A DNA stretch of 64,000 nt, from positions 45,780 to 109,779 of the forward strand of contig OMZY01000009.1 in NCBI GenBank assembly GCA_900315675.1, given 5' to 3'. Shown piece by piece: positions 17,888 through 35,997 of the stretch (position 1 is its first letter; the number at the start of each line of letters is the position of its first letter). The notes beneath the pieces were generated by a model that had not been told where the DNA came from, made no database searches, and was given only the letters and a program-made list of their open reading frames with translations. Made by a program: the position numbers and the translations under genes. Source of the stretch: an uncultured Eubacteriales bacterium. Lineage in GTDB: Bacteria; Bacillota; Clostridia; Christensenellales; Aristaeellaceae.

Positions 17888-18005
17888 TTGCGGTCGTCAG
17901 TCTTTCGTTCCGCAAGCTCAATGGTCGCGACTCCACACAGTGGAGCTCGCTCCCTTTCGCTTGACCTCAGAACCAATGAGATTCCCTCCACTGGAGGTCA
18001 TTGGT
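17888..18005 (-). repeat. Multi-hairpin element, copy A, at the glpK 3' end
   Basis: Read on the minus strand from inside the last glpK codons: hairpin 1 (18005-17972; arms ACCAATGA and TCATTGGT enclosing CCTCCAGTGGAGG), a spacer containing TCAAGCGAAA, hairpin 2 (17950-17926; GCGA and CTCCAC pairing with GTGGAG and TCGC), and hairpin 3 (17915-17888; TTGCGG with CCGCAA). The glpK stop codon lies in the first arm. The lysC 3' flank has a related copy in the same sense orientation, with paired substitutions in the stems. Confidence 0.7.
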
Positions 18006-19491
18006 CCTTCGCCCAACCCAATGAACGTTCGACGGCACTGTGCCATCCTTTGAGGTTCAGCAGCCTTGTGGCGTCATCCATCCGGGGCGTGAACTCCAGA
18101 TCCTTCTGCCAGATTTTTGTGGTTTCCTCCAGACTGCTGTAAATGCCCGCGCCGAGTCCGGCCAGCAGGGCCGCGCCCAGGGCGGTGGTTTCCAGCACTC
18201 TCGGCCGGATCACGGGAATGCCCGTGATATCCGCCTGGAACTGCATCAGGAAGCTGTTTGCGCTGGCGCCGCCGTCCACCTGCAGGCTTTCCGGCCGGCT
18301 GCCGCAGTCCGCGATCATCGCGTCCATCAGGTCTGCGCTCTGGTAGGCAATCGCTTCCAGGGCCGCCCGGACAATATGCGCCCGGCCGGTACCGCGCGTC
18401 ATACCGATCAGCGTTCCCCGGCTGTACATGTCCCACCAGGGCGCGCCCAGGCCGGTAAACGCCGGCACCAGGTACACGCCGCCGGTACTCTGGATCGACT
18501 GGGCAATGCCCTCCGACTCCGCGGCATTCTCAATAATCTTCAGTTCATCCCGGAGCCACTGGATCGTAGCCCCGCCCATGAACACGCTGCCTTCCAGCGC
18601 ATAGGTTGGTTTTCCGTTAATGCGCCAGGCCATGGTGGTCAGCAGCCCGTGCCCGCTCATCACCGGTTTATCGCCGGTGTTCATCAGCATGAAGCAGCCA
18701 GTACCGTAGGTGTTCTTGATGTCTCCGGTCTTCAGGCACGCCTGTCCGAAAAGGCTCGCGTGCTGGTCGCCCGCCATGGCGGTCACCGGAATGGCCCGGC
18801 CCAGGATTGCCGGATCCAGCATGCCGATCGGTCCGGCCGTATCCACCACCCGGGGCAGGCAGGCCTTCGGGATATCCAGCAGCTTCAGCAGGTCCTCGTC
18901 CCAGTCCTGGGTATGCAGGTTAAACAGCATGGTCCGGCCCGCATTGGTCGCGTCCGTCACATGCGGCCGGCCTTCCAGCAGGTTCCAGCACAGGAAGCTG
19001 TCCACTGTGCCGAAGCACAGCTCTCCCTTTTCTGCCCGGTCCCGCAGGTTGTAATAATCCAGCAGCCATTTCAGCTTAGTGCCGGAAAAATAGGCGTCCG
19101 GCACCAGGCCCGTTTTCTCGCGGATCATATCCCCGCAGCCGTCCGCTACCAGCCGGTCCACAATCTGACTGGTTCGCCGGCACTGCCATACAATGGCGTT
19201 GCCCACGCATTCGCCCGTGTTCCGGTCCCAGAGGAAAGTAGTTTCCCGCTGGTTGGTAATGCCGATGGCAGCGATTTCCGCCGCGTTCACGCCGCTCAGG
19301 CGCACAGCCTCCCGCAGGGCCGTGATCTGGCTGTTCAGGATATCTTTCGGGTCATGCTCCACCCAGCCCGGTTTCGGATAATGCTGGGGGAATTCTTTGT
19401 TGAAGGCCGCAATAATCTCCCCGTCTTCGGTGAAGATTACCGCCCGGGAGCTGGTTGTTCCCTGATCAAGCGCCGCCAGAATCTTCTTCAT
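17998..19491 (-). CDS. glpK: Glycerol kinase
   Basis: 497 residues. It phosphorylates glycerol to glycerol-3-phosphate. I choose the ATG at 19491 (MKKILAALDQGTTSSRAVIF) with GAGGAGG upstream; the frame extends further only by overlapping the next gene. FGGY-family landmarks are GTTSSRAVIF (ATP site), AMAGDQHASLFGQ, YGTGCFMLMNTGD and VYLVPAFTGLGAPWWD. Glycerol facilitator, glpD and glpP genes are absent nearby, so it is a stand-alone copy placed beside pgsA, whose substrate is its product. Its start lies 26 bases inside the upstream gene, which implies translational coupling. Confidence 0.97.
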   Translation of the reverse strand: MKKILAALDQGTTSSRAVIFTEDGEIIAAFNKEFPQHYPKPGWVEHDPKDILNSQITALREAVRLSGVNAAEIAAIGITNQRETTFLWDRNTGECVGNAIVWQCRRTSQIVDRLVADGCGDMIREKTGLVPDAYFSGTKLKWLLDYYNLRDRAEKGELCFGTVDSFLCWNLLEGRPHVTDATNAGRTMLFNLHTQDWDEDLLKLLDIPKACLPRVVDTAGPIGMLDPAILGRAIPVTAMAGDQHASLFGQACLKTGDIKNTYGTGCFMLMNTGDKPVMSGHGLLTTMAWRINGKPTYALEGSVFMGGATIQWLRDELKIIENAAESEGIAQSIQSTGGVYLVPAFTGLGAPWWDMYSRGTLIGMTRGTGRAHIVRAALEAIAYQSADLMDAMIADCGSRPESLQVDGGASANSFLMQFQADITGIPVIRPRVLETTALGAALLAGLGAGIYSSLEETTKIWQKDLEFTPRMDDATRLLNLKGWHSAVERSLGWAKDQ

Positions 19492-34507: not shown

Positions 34508-35830
34508 GTGCTTGAATGTATTGTGACAAAATTCGGCGGCAGCTCGCTGGCCAATGATGAACAGTTCCGCAAGGTTCGCAGCATTCTGGAGCTGGAACCC
34601 ACCCGTCGCTACCTGGTCCCCAGCGCTCCCGGCAAACGCTTCAAGGAAGACGATAAGGTCACTGACCTGCTGTATCAGTGCTATGACCTTGCTTCTGAAG
34701 GCAAGTCCATCGCGGAGCCTTTCTCCCGTATCCGGGATCGGTATCTGTCCATCGCCCGCGCTCTGCACCTGAAGGTGGATATCTCCGCGAAGCTGGACGA
34801 AGTCGAGCAGGGCATCACCGAAGGCAAAGGCAAGGACTGGTGCGCCAGCCGCGGCGAATATCTCTGCGGCATCCTCATGGCCGACTATCTGGGATGGCGT
34901 TTCGTCGATCCCATTGACGGCATTTTCTTCAATGATAACGGCACCCTGAACGATGACAAGACCCAGGAAAAGCTCTCTGCCCTCCTGAAGGACGGCGAGC
35001 CTGCCGTTGTGCCCGGTTTCTACGGCTCCAGGGAGAATGGTGAAGTCTGCACCTTCTCCCGCAGCGGCAGTGACATCACCGGCGCCCTGGTTGCCCGTGC
35101 GGTCAATGCTGATGTGTATGAAAACTGGACCGACGTGTCCGGTTTCCTGATGGCGGATCCCCGGATCATCGAGAACCCGGCAGAAATTTCCTCCATCACC
35201 TATAAGGAGCTCCGGGAACTGAGCCATATGGGCGCCTCCGTCCTGCATGAAGACGCCATGTTCCCGGTGCACAAGGCCGGCATCCCCACCAATATCCGCA
35301 ATACCAACAAGCCCTACCATCCCGGCACCATGATCAGCAAGAACGCTCCCAACGAGATTTCCGTTCCCACCATTACCGGTATTGCCGGCCACAAGGGATA
35401 CAGCGTTATCTCCATTGAAAAGAGCATGATGAACAGCGAAGTCGGTTTCGGCCGTAAGGTCCTGCAGGTGCTTGAAAACTACGGCGTATCCTTTGAACAT
35501 ATGCCCACCGGCATTGACAGCATGTGCGTCGTGGTGAACAGCGCCACCCTGGAGCCCCACCGCGCTGAGATTATCAAGGAAATCGAAAATCTGGTTGACG
35601 GCAGCGGCAGCGTCTCTGTCAGCGACAACATGTCCATCATCGCCACCGTCGGCCGCGGCATGGTGCACAACTGCGGCACCGCCGCCCGTCTCTTCTCCGC
35701 CATGAGCCGCGCCCGCATCAACGTGCGGATGATCGACCAGGGTTCCAGCGAGCTGAGCATTATCGTCGGCGTCAACGACAGCGATTTCGAAGCCACCATC
35801 CACGCGATCTATCACGAGTTCGTAGGATGA
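34508..35830 (+). CDS. lysC: Aspartate kinase
   Basis: 440 residues from a GTG with TTTGGAGG upstream. It catalyses the first step of the aspartate family pathway. The kinase domain begins IVTKFGGSSLANDEQ and contains FSRSGSDITGALVARAV and ENWTDVSGFLMADPRII. Two ACT domains make up the C-terminal third (GYSVISIEKSMMNSEVGFGR and MSIIATVGRGMVHNCGTAARLFSAM), so allosteric control by an end product is expected. It is the monofunctional class, closer to clostridial enzymes that lack a homoserine dehydrogenase fusion. It is followed by a multi-hairpin element and a terminator. Confidence 0.97.
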   Translation: MLECIVTKFGGSSLANDEQFRKVRSILELEPTRRYLVPSAPGKRFKEDDKVTDLLYQCYDLASEGKSIAEPFSRIRDRYLSIARALHLKVDISAKLDEVEQGITEGKGKDWCASRGEYLCGILMADYLGWRFVDPIDGIFFNDNGTLNDDKTQEKLSALLKDGEPAVVPGFYGSRENGEVCTFSRSGSDITGALVARAVNADVYENWTDVSGFLMADPRIIENPAEISSITYKELRELSHMGASVLHEDAMFPVHKAGIPTNIRNTNKPYHPGTMISKNAPNEISVPTITGIAGHKGYSVISIEKSMMNSEVGFGRKVLQVLENYGVSFEHMPTGIDSMCVVVNSATLEPHRAEIIKEIENLVDGSGSVSVSDNMSIIATVGRGMVHNCGTAARLFSAMSRARINVRMIDQGSSELSIIVGVNDSDFEATIHAIYHEFVG

Positions 35831-35957
35831 ACATTCGATGACCTTCAGTGAAGGAAATTTCATCGAATGTGAATTCAACCGAAACAAGGCGATCTCCACA
35901 GTGTGGAGTCGCGCCGATTTACTGATCTGTCCAAATCTATGATTTGGGTAACAGATC
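35831..35957 (+). repeat. Multi-hairpin element, copy B, after lysC
   Basis: It begins on the base after the lysC stop. Hairpin 1 (35831-35870): ACATTCGATGA and TCATCGAATGT enclosing CCTTCAGTGAAGG. A spacer with TCAACCGAAA leads to hairpin 2 (35889-35912): GCGA, CTCCAC, GTGGAG, TCGC. Hairpin 3 (35924-35957): GATCTGT plus CCAAATC paired with GATTTGG plus ACAGATC. Hairpins 1 and 2 match the copy at the glpK end, with compensating base changes; hairpin 3 shares only position. Confidence 0.7.
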
Positions 35958-35997
35958 GTATGCAGCGCTGAGGTTGCGGACTGAGTTCAGTTACAGC

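Follow-up and report, generated by a model that had tools for sequence, protein, structure and literature searches.

The window, that is the whole stretch of 64,000 nt analysed, hosts two copies of a hairpin-rich repeat, located at the 3' ends of a glpK-type and a lysC-type gene. The repeat, called here AB element, is about 103 nt long and consists, read in the gene direction, of hairpin A followed by a second domain, core B. In the list of features R1 denotes a covariance model built from 13 aligned copies, which match it by construction.

17998..19485, minus strand: glpK-type FGGY carbohydrate kinase, host gene (Pfam FGGY_N, FGGY_C; 5' boundary approximate)
17908..18010, minus strand: AB element at the glpK 3' end (R1 full length, 114 bits, E 9.5e-25, a score partly circular because the glpK locus is among the 13 R1 build sequences)
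17969..18008, minus strand: hairpin A, glpK (fold; the 5' arm contains the final glpK codons and the TGA, 17998-18000)
17910..17964, minus strand: core B, glpK, TCAAGCGAAAGGGAG / hairpin / CGACCATTGAGCTTGCGG (R2 62.5 bits, E 2.6e-14; this copy is one of the 36 sequences behind R2)
17890..17907, minus strand: tail after the glpK copy (CGAAAGACTGACGACCGC), probable remnant of a second tandem copy
34508..35830, plus strand: lysC-type aspartate kinase, host gene (Pfam AA_kinase, ACT_9; ends FVG* at GGA TGA)
35831..35870, plus strand: hairpin A, lysC (fold; begins right after the lysC stop, 35828-35830)
35875..35979, plus strand: core B, lysC, split by a D insert (R2 21.6 bits, E 0.0014 across the insert)
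35920..35968, plus strand: 49-nt D-type hairpin element (TGTCCAAATC...GATTTGGGTAACA) inside the lysC core B (missing in the orthologous locus L366 of G001)

The initial annotation had described related hairpins in sense orientation at the ends of glpK and lysC. The hairpins are real, and belong to the same two-hairpin unit; the gene names are right as well, as FGGY kinase domains and amino-acid kinase plus ACT domains were found in the two products. A pattern search of the window placed the ATGACCTCCAGTGGAGG core at 17985-18001 (minus strand) and the ATGACCTTCAGTGAAGG core at 35838-35854 (plus strand). Allowing up to two mismatches, no further match was found in the window (shuffles gave a mean of 0.07, and two matches were reached by 1 shuffle in 100). 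Both copies fold as hairpins (z = -5.68 at glpK and -5.38 at lysC), and none of 200 shuffles was equally stable. The glpK translation ends GWAKDQ*, its stop codon lying within the 5' arm of hairpin A. The lysC copy, also an R1 build sequence, is matched by R1 at 35829-35926 (90.7 bits). The outer stem of core B is CAAGC/GCTTG at glpK and CAACC/GGTTG in most copies, and encloses what had been annotated as hairpin 2. A third hairpin had been reported at both loci. It is present at lysC, where it corresponds to the 49-nt D insert in the second domain (the D pattern is exact at 35928-35948, and the orthologous copy in G001 is uninterrupted), but is not one feature common to the two loci. The tail at 17890-17907 is probably left over from the 5' end of another tandem copy, the rest of which was deleted, and is similar to short tails seen after glpK in G001, G051 and G022.

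On inspection, no T-run follows immediately hairpin A or core B at either locus, so that neither hairpin qualifies as an intrinsic terminator. Rfam release 15 gave over the window a sole match at the gathering threshold or at E<1, an ordinary SAM riboswitch (RF00162, 12034-12148, minus strand, 79.8 bits). The nine element loci compared to Rfam yielded one tRNA and one below-threshold match, both off the element, in agreement with the earlier view that this is no named RNA family. No name for the repeat was found in the literature searched.

Architecture and distribution of the AB element

Hairpin A has variable arms and a fixed core, GAC-nnnn-AGT-nnnn-GAAATTTC. Core B is made of TCAACCGAAA..AG, an apical hairpin, and CG.C.ATTGAGGTTGCGG, and its internal loop (CGAAA..AG / CG..ATTGA) is conserved despite different apical hairpins. 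The loops at the tip of hairpin A occur in one orientation (AGT 55, GGT 10, TGT 6), and inverted forms are missing among the 12 commonest loops. Tandem copies with a period of 102-105 nt were found in G023, G019 and G007. Core B occurs in variants of 54 nt and of 55 nt, which are out of frame with each other; a common reading frame is thus lacking, and a protein-coding repeat was dismissed on reading. Similarly, none of 245 pairs of core B 5' and 3' ends in the fetched loci (overlaps counted repeatedly; maximal spacing 167 nt) encloses a gene. As no Y1 transposase gene of its own lies between the ends in those pairs, an IS200/IS605-type element was rejected.

BLAST of the glpK copy against its own genome returned 23 matches, 15 of which at E<1e-9, query and lysC included. 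In the same 3.6-Mb genome R1 identified 54 matches at E<=1, and 30 at E<1e-4 (two pairs overlapping); at E<=0.01 there are 46 matches in G002 and 35 in G022, both near-complete. These numbers may be low, because only the best candidates were scored in each genome (the best 150 of 1076 in the window's genome, the best 97 per genome in the search of 41 genomes described next). Among 41 genomes, R1 matches occur in all 25 of the genus, the window's genome included, and in none of the 16 from other families of the order. The covariance-model search proposed in the initial annotation thus revealed many further copies, both in the genome and in its relatives. Chance resemblance is ruled out by shuffles, BLAST copies, R1 matches and covariation.

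A pattern scan of named genomes gave at least 113 stretches. The 80 listed come almost entirely from MAGs that bear the title Clostridia, Clostridiales or Eubacteriales, and the sample names of many refer to ruminants or deer; they include four from Candidatus Limiplasma and one chance-like match in Alcanivorax. Core B extends beyond the A+B unit, and may leave the genus, since in the Limiplasma stretches, where enough sequence was shown, it lies behind a different upstream module. A search for core B in the wider class, carried out with stricter filters on a draw that listed no other member of the genus, hit 1 of 391 genomes, the window's own. R1 was run on the 80 listed stretches and on 7 viral ones, and 31 of the 87, mostly good matches, were taken into alignment A3. 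Among the genera sampled with the full A+B model, the repeat is spread within a single group of Clostridia from animal guts.

The CAGTG-type tip or core B also occurs in at least two other hairpin modules, which nest with AB elements. The module GCCCGGAAAA...CAGTG...GAACGGGC was observed at L010, L016, L089 and L113, and a GAGCGAAGGAAGCGG-like hairpin associated with core B at L007, L003 and L244.

An origin from phages or plasmids was discarded, no match being found in either annotated collection. One exact pattern retrieved seven stretches from IMG/VR: L294 carries AB elements, L295 an apparent related core B module, and the other five were read as chance matches in unrelated sequence. The two AB elements of L294, a contig filed as viral, are at 121-222 and 2164-2262; the contig may be a host stretch or a prophage.

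Insertion sites, mobility and candidate enzymes

AB elements are inserted beside G-runs (TTTGGG^, CAGTGGG^). Of 109 usable copies, 103 show pairing between an internal base and the base preceding the modelled unit, against a mean of 56 and a maximum of 74 in shuffles; counted by distinct combinations, the figure is 77 of 83. One base further out, pairing is seen in only 36 of 109. In tandem units, flank bases can belong to the element. The unit is mostly preceded by the tetranucleotides GGGC, GGAT or GGGA, and GTAG does not occur there in any of the 109 rows, out of 117, that were usable. On reading, (GG)NNGAA... at one end and ...TTGCGG at the other are not inverted repeats of each other. MITEs were excluded on the same ground, as terminal inverted repeats are lacking, and the junctions at L022 and L032 share at most GG, with no target-site duplication.

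Gene ends are one of several kinds of site, others being the inside of other repeats and the regions behind tRNA genes. In a set of 125 distinct copies, 24 are at sense gene ends (within -25 to +16 of the element start), 7 at antisense ends (at the other side of the element) and 3 in both (two-sided binomial p = 0.003); the ORF filter is crude, and a few in either class may not be genes. The stop codon is found at the same offset, +2, in half of the 24 sense copies, mostly as GGA TGA (10 directly, L106 and L257 by a longer ORF), and in four glpK copies at +10.

The flanks of 12 copies of the window's genome were joined, and for 9 of these 25 orthologous loci were retrieved in G001, G022 and G051; among the remaining three, L002 and L011 matched repeats, and L030 gave no row. 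A full element is present at the matching place in 6 of the 25 loci, a partial one in another. For eight of the nine copies a full-length R1 match is missing at the site in one sister genome or more, and for the ninth one sister has only a partial match; the orthologues of L033 and L026 have flanks too diverged to count as clean empty sites. Clean cases are those of L022, L032, L012 and lysC. The AB element of L022 sits inside a D element (TTTGGG^TAACGG) in the window's genome, G022 has D alone, and G051 neither. The L032 and L012 copies are found only in the window's genome, and are missing in all three sisters. At lysC the element is intact in G001, absent from an empty site in G022, and reduced to a 5' remnant in G051. 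Compared with uninterrupted copies, L008 and L009 contain D-type inserts within the tip of hairpin A, and L104 and L025 are AB elements lodged within another hairpin element.

Presence or absence at orthologous loci and nested insertion imply that the AB unit is mobile. A palindromic mobile element targeting gene ends had been one of the two readings first offered, and is supported: copies are dispersed, orthologous sites may be empty, insertions are nested, and sense orientation prevails at gene ends. The best explanation as a whole, to which we assign a probability of about 70%, is that a non-autonomous mobile DNA repeat, about 103 bp long, is represented by the copies at glpK and lysC. The element would move through a hairpin of single-stranded DNA, on which an enzyme supplied in trans would act. 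At protein genes, sense copies giving a stop codon at the natural end would be tolerated, which would produce the 3'-end pattern. Copies transcribed at gene ends may affect mRNA processing.

At sites lacking a full copy (the glpK ends L150, L151 and L152, and the lysC end L370), a short tail corresponding to the 5' arm of hairpin A runs up to GAC, GACC or GACCGCC. Where these tails stop suggests that deletions may start near the hairpin tip.

A dedicated mobilising enzyme was not found among the Y1_Tnp loci of the genus. RAYT-like genes (Y1_Tnp 42.8-62.5 bits, 249-341 aa) reside in 16 of the 25 genomes of the genus, and that type is absent from the 16 others (E<=1e-6); one of the proteins matches NCBIfam REP_Tyr_transpos at 73.8 bits, below the cut-off of 80. 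AB elements could accordingly be REP/REPIN elements moved by these transposases, and insertion without long duplication beside a short G-run would suit HUH chemistry. Yet, R1 gave no match at E<=10, in flanks of up to 1.5 kb, in any of the 30 Y1 loci retrieved (from 41 matches; 27 in the genus, 23 of RAYT type). Of six RAYT-type loci inspected for repeats, four have the gene enclosed by inverted repeats proper to it. These results do not support RAYT as a dedicated partner. Moreover, nine of the 25 genomes, several of them incomplete, have no RAYT-type match, and all nine host AB elements; the elements also lack a GTAG tag. We consider mobilization by RAYTs unlikely, though deserving attention. 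The inverted repeats (such as AGTTGACAGAGGGACGGGG...) that flank the RAYT-like genes at L337 (1462-2217 plus flanks), L336, L340 and L357 form a separate repeat family.

Host-matching arms and paired changes

The strangest trait of AB is seen at several glpK loci, where a hairpin is partly made of the host gene. A search of 41 genomes gave a glpK match in 38, and the gene end was read in 30 of these; five of the 30 (the window's genome, G016, G055, G023 and G007) carry the A+B unit. In all but the first, the 3' end of the gene itself makes up the 5' arm of hairpin A, to which the 3' arm is complementary along 11 to 14 bp. G023 (AQA*) and G007 (AEA*) have perfect 14-bp arms, the 5' arm comprising the gene end and two more bases; the match is 13/14 in G055 (AEH*, one mismatch) and 11 bp in G016 (KD*). 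G016 ends in the residues AKD* and G055 in AEH*, as do relatives without the element; the ends of G023 and G007 fit this pattern, without an exact element-free counterpart. The arm of the window's own glpK copy resembles a generic element arm. G001, G051 and G022 have at the glpK end the short tail similar to the 5' arm, and nothing more: such tails are probably remnants, but could also be the target before insertion. G008, G047 and G049 carry other hairpin modules at this place.

Copies linked to tRNA genes, several of which are mutually orthologous, behave similarly. When the left arms of 11 such copies were compared with the reverse-complemented 3' halves of tRNAs, 10 of them (from one tRNA-Met, two tRNA-Ala, one tRNA-Val and one tRNA-Pro locus) were closest to the tRNA lying next upstream, with scores of 19-26 against 9-17.5 for the best other isotype in the set; the eleventh, L064, has no clear preference (13 against 12.5). 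At L034, L028, L110, L029, L093 and L084 the order is tRNA gene, inverted copy of its 3' half, AB element, and often a sense copy of the T-arm. In some sister genomes another hairpin module replaces AB at the tRNA-Met, Ala, Val and Pro sites.

Arms matching the host may derive from templating at insertion, or from later mending. The former possibility leads to a model in which snap-back copying (template switching) often creates hairpin A afresh at the site, one arm being the host end and the other its copy, so that covariation would be the outcome of templating, not of function. The four glpK copies and the ten tRNA-linked copies fit such a process, L064 not clearly. In addition, generic arms (GAACCTCTGACG) recur at unrelated sites, therefore many arms are inherited, and the inverted tip loops are missing among the commonest ones. 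In the closest pairs of copies (two differences at most) one-sided stem changes outnumber two-sided ones 7 to 1, and the two are equal at 3 and 4 differences. One-sided changes come first, hence stems are mended stepwise, which does not favour snap-back copying, and is also predicted by RNA selection. Frequent renewal of hairpin A by template switching is on balance improbable, if a serious candidate. Unlikely, too, is the larger proposal that AB is a mobile hairpin fitting itself to its site, in which the stem is built at a gene or tRNA end by reverse-copying the last bases of the host, and covariation is written by DNA synthesis, not by RNA selection.

Paired change with kept structure, pointed out in the initial annotation, is well documented. 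RNAalifold on the 13 aligned copies gave 31 pairs, 20 of which with two-sided changes. Over 99 distinct rows, pairing is kept in 97.7% of 3029 cells, and two-sided changes involve 27 of the 31 pairs and all four helices. The covariation score is 0.517, far above that of shuffled alignments (0.172) and of alignments with partners slid (0.05-0.08); the counts are not independent events, because rows were fitted to the model when aligned, and many of them are akin to each other.

A stem selected as RNA should accept G·U far better than A·C, a DNA palindrome should be indifferent. In 119 distinct rows (the 99 of alignment A2 and 20 further ones of A3, with 69 gapped cells set aside) the stems include, against 3507 Watson-Crick cells, 34 G·U, 25 A·C and 54 other mismatches, about 19 of the latter stemming from one pair that differs by subfamily. 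The tRNA stems of the same loci (23 distinct tRNAs) have 13 G·U, 2 A·C and 1 other against 260 Watson-Crick cells. The two spectra differ for G·U versus all other non-standard cells (p = 1.3e-4) and for G·U versus A·C (p = 0.04), figures to be weighed considering that the control is made of 23 tRNAs, that cells are non-independent, and that the model had been used to fit the alignment of the elements. As a control the SAM riboswitch was discarded, being too invariant (4 G·U and 1 A·C of 783 cells). The lack of a tRNA-like G·U bias points to DNA hairpins, and we lean, not firmly, to the view that AB stems are DNA hairpins rather than selected RNA.

An RNA under selection, the other reading first offered, is not established: covariation is real, but the mismatch spectrum is DNA-like. 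According to this hypothesis, AB would be a structured RNA acting in 3' UTRs or between cistrons as an mRNA stabiliser, a processing site or a protein-binding site, and copies would have spread by duplication. Two-sided changes in all helices, the conserved internal loop of core B, the sense bias at gene ends and the precedence of one-sided changes all agree with it, and it would explain the single orientation of the tip loops as well. It must be reconciled, on the other hand, with G·U accounting for 34 of 3541 standard cells and being nearly equalled by A·C, as opposed to 13 to 2 in tRNA, with 101 of the 125 copies not being at sense gene ends as scored, and with the sister genomes that lack a full-length match at eight of nine loci. 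We deem it quite unlikely. In the preferred reading of AB as a mobile DNA repeat, stems would stay complementary mainly at the DNA level, through hairpin recognition or the repair of mismatched palindromes, and the strong covariation of AB may be written at that level.

Paired changes which keep stems are a standard sign of a functional RNA, and AB elements show them, yet behave as mobile DNA. If the self-fitting hairpin is true, screens that apply covariation to intergenic repeats must include a null model at the level of DNA. The AB element also offers a case in which insertion flush with a stop codon and nesting of hairpin in hairpin can be traced across closely related genomes.

Relation to known repeats

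AB is of an ordinary kind, a small mobile palindromic repeat, in an unusual form, being modular, nested and stop-codon-flush. The closest known kinds are BOX and REP repeats. As described in PMC3049150, BOX elements are, like AB, modular interspersed repeats of similar size with predicted stem-loops and variable modules, a likeness of architecture. In both cases the repeat can supply the stop codon at gene 3' ends; in Streptococcus pneumoniae, BOX elements encode it in 36 of 58 overlapping CDSs (PMC3049150). Unlike BOX as there described, AB has a fixed CAGTG-type tip and a TCAACCGAAA/ATTGAGGTTGCGG core, belongs to another bacterial class, and is inserted beside G-runs and inside other hairpin elements.

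REP and REPIN sequences, as presented in PMC8266576, PMC3116915 and PMC3733652, are dispersed palindromic repeats, often clustered, and Y1 transposases occur in the genus hosting AB. REPs are palindromes of 20-50 nt that follow a conserved tetranucleotide, usually GTAG, whereas AB is a two-domain unit of about 103 nt lacking GTAG. REPs flank the RAYT gene, whereas AB is absent beside the 23 RAYT-type loci examined. REPs are further characterised by being bound and cut, as single-stranded DNA, by TnpA-REP. At four of six loci inspected, the RAYT gene of the genus is set between inverted repeats, as are the TIR-flanked genes described in PMC3733652. The CGTC-tagged REPs of the same report are palindromic and without a dedicated transposase, as AB appears to be, and are recorded there in Proteobacteria, Chlorobi, Bacteroidetes, Spirochaetes and Thermotogae. 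They are short and have CGTC at one end (PMC3733652), whereas AB has CGTC inside hairpin A.

A likeness of a different sort is to template switching at quasipalindromes, which perfects imperfect inverted repeats, and is a DNA-level source of paired change (PMC7202029, PMC8604942). It is a mutation process, whereas AB is an element, and the spacer inversions named in PMC8604942 are not seen among the commonest tips of hairpin A.
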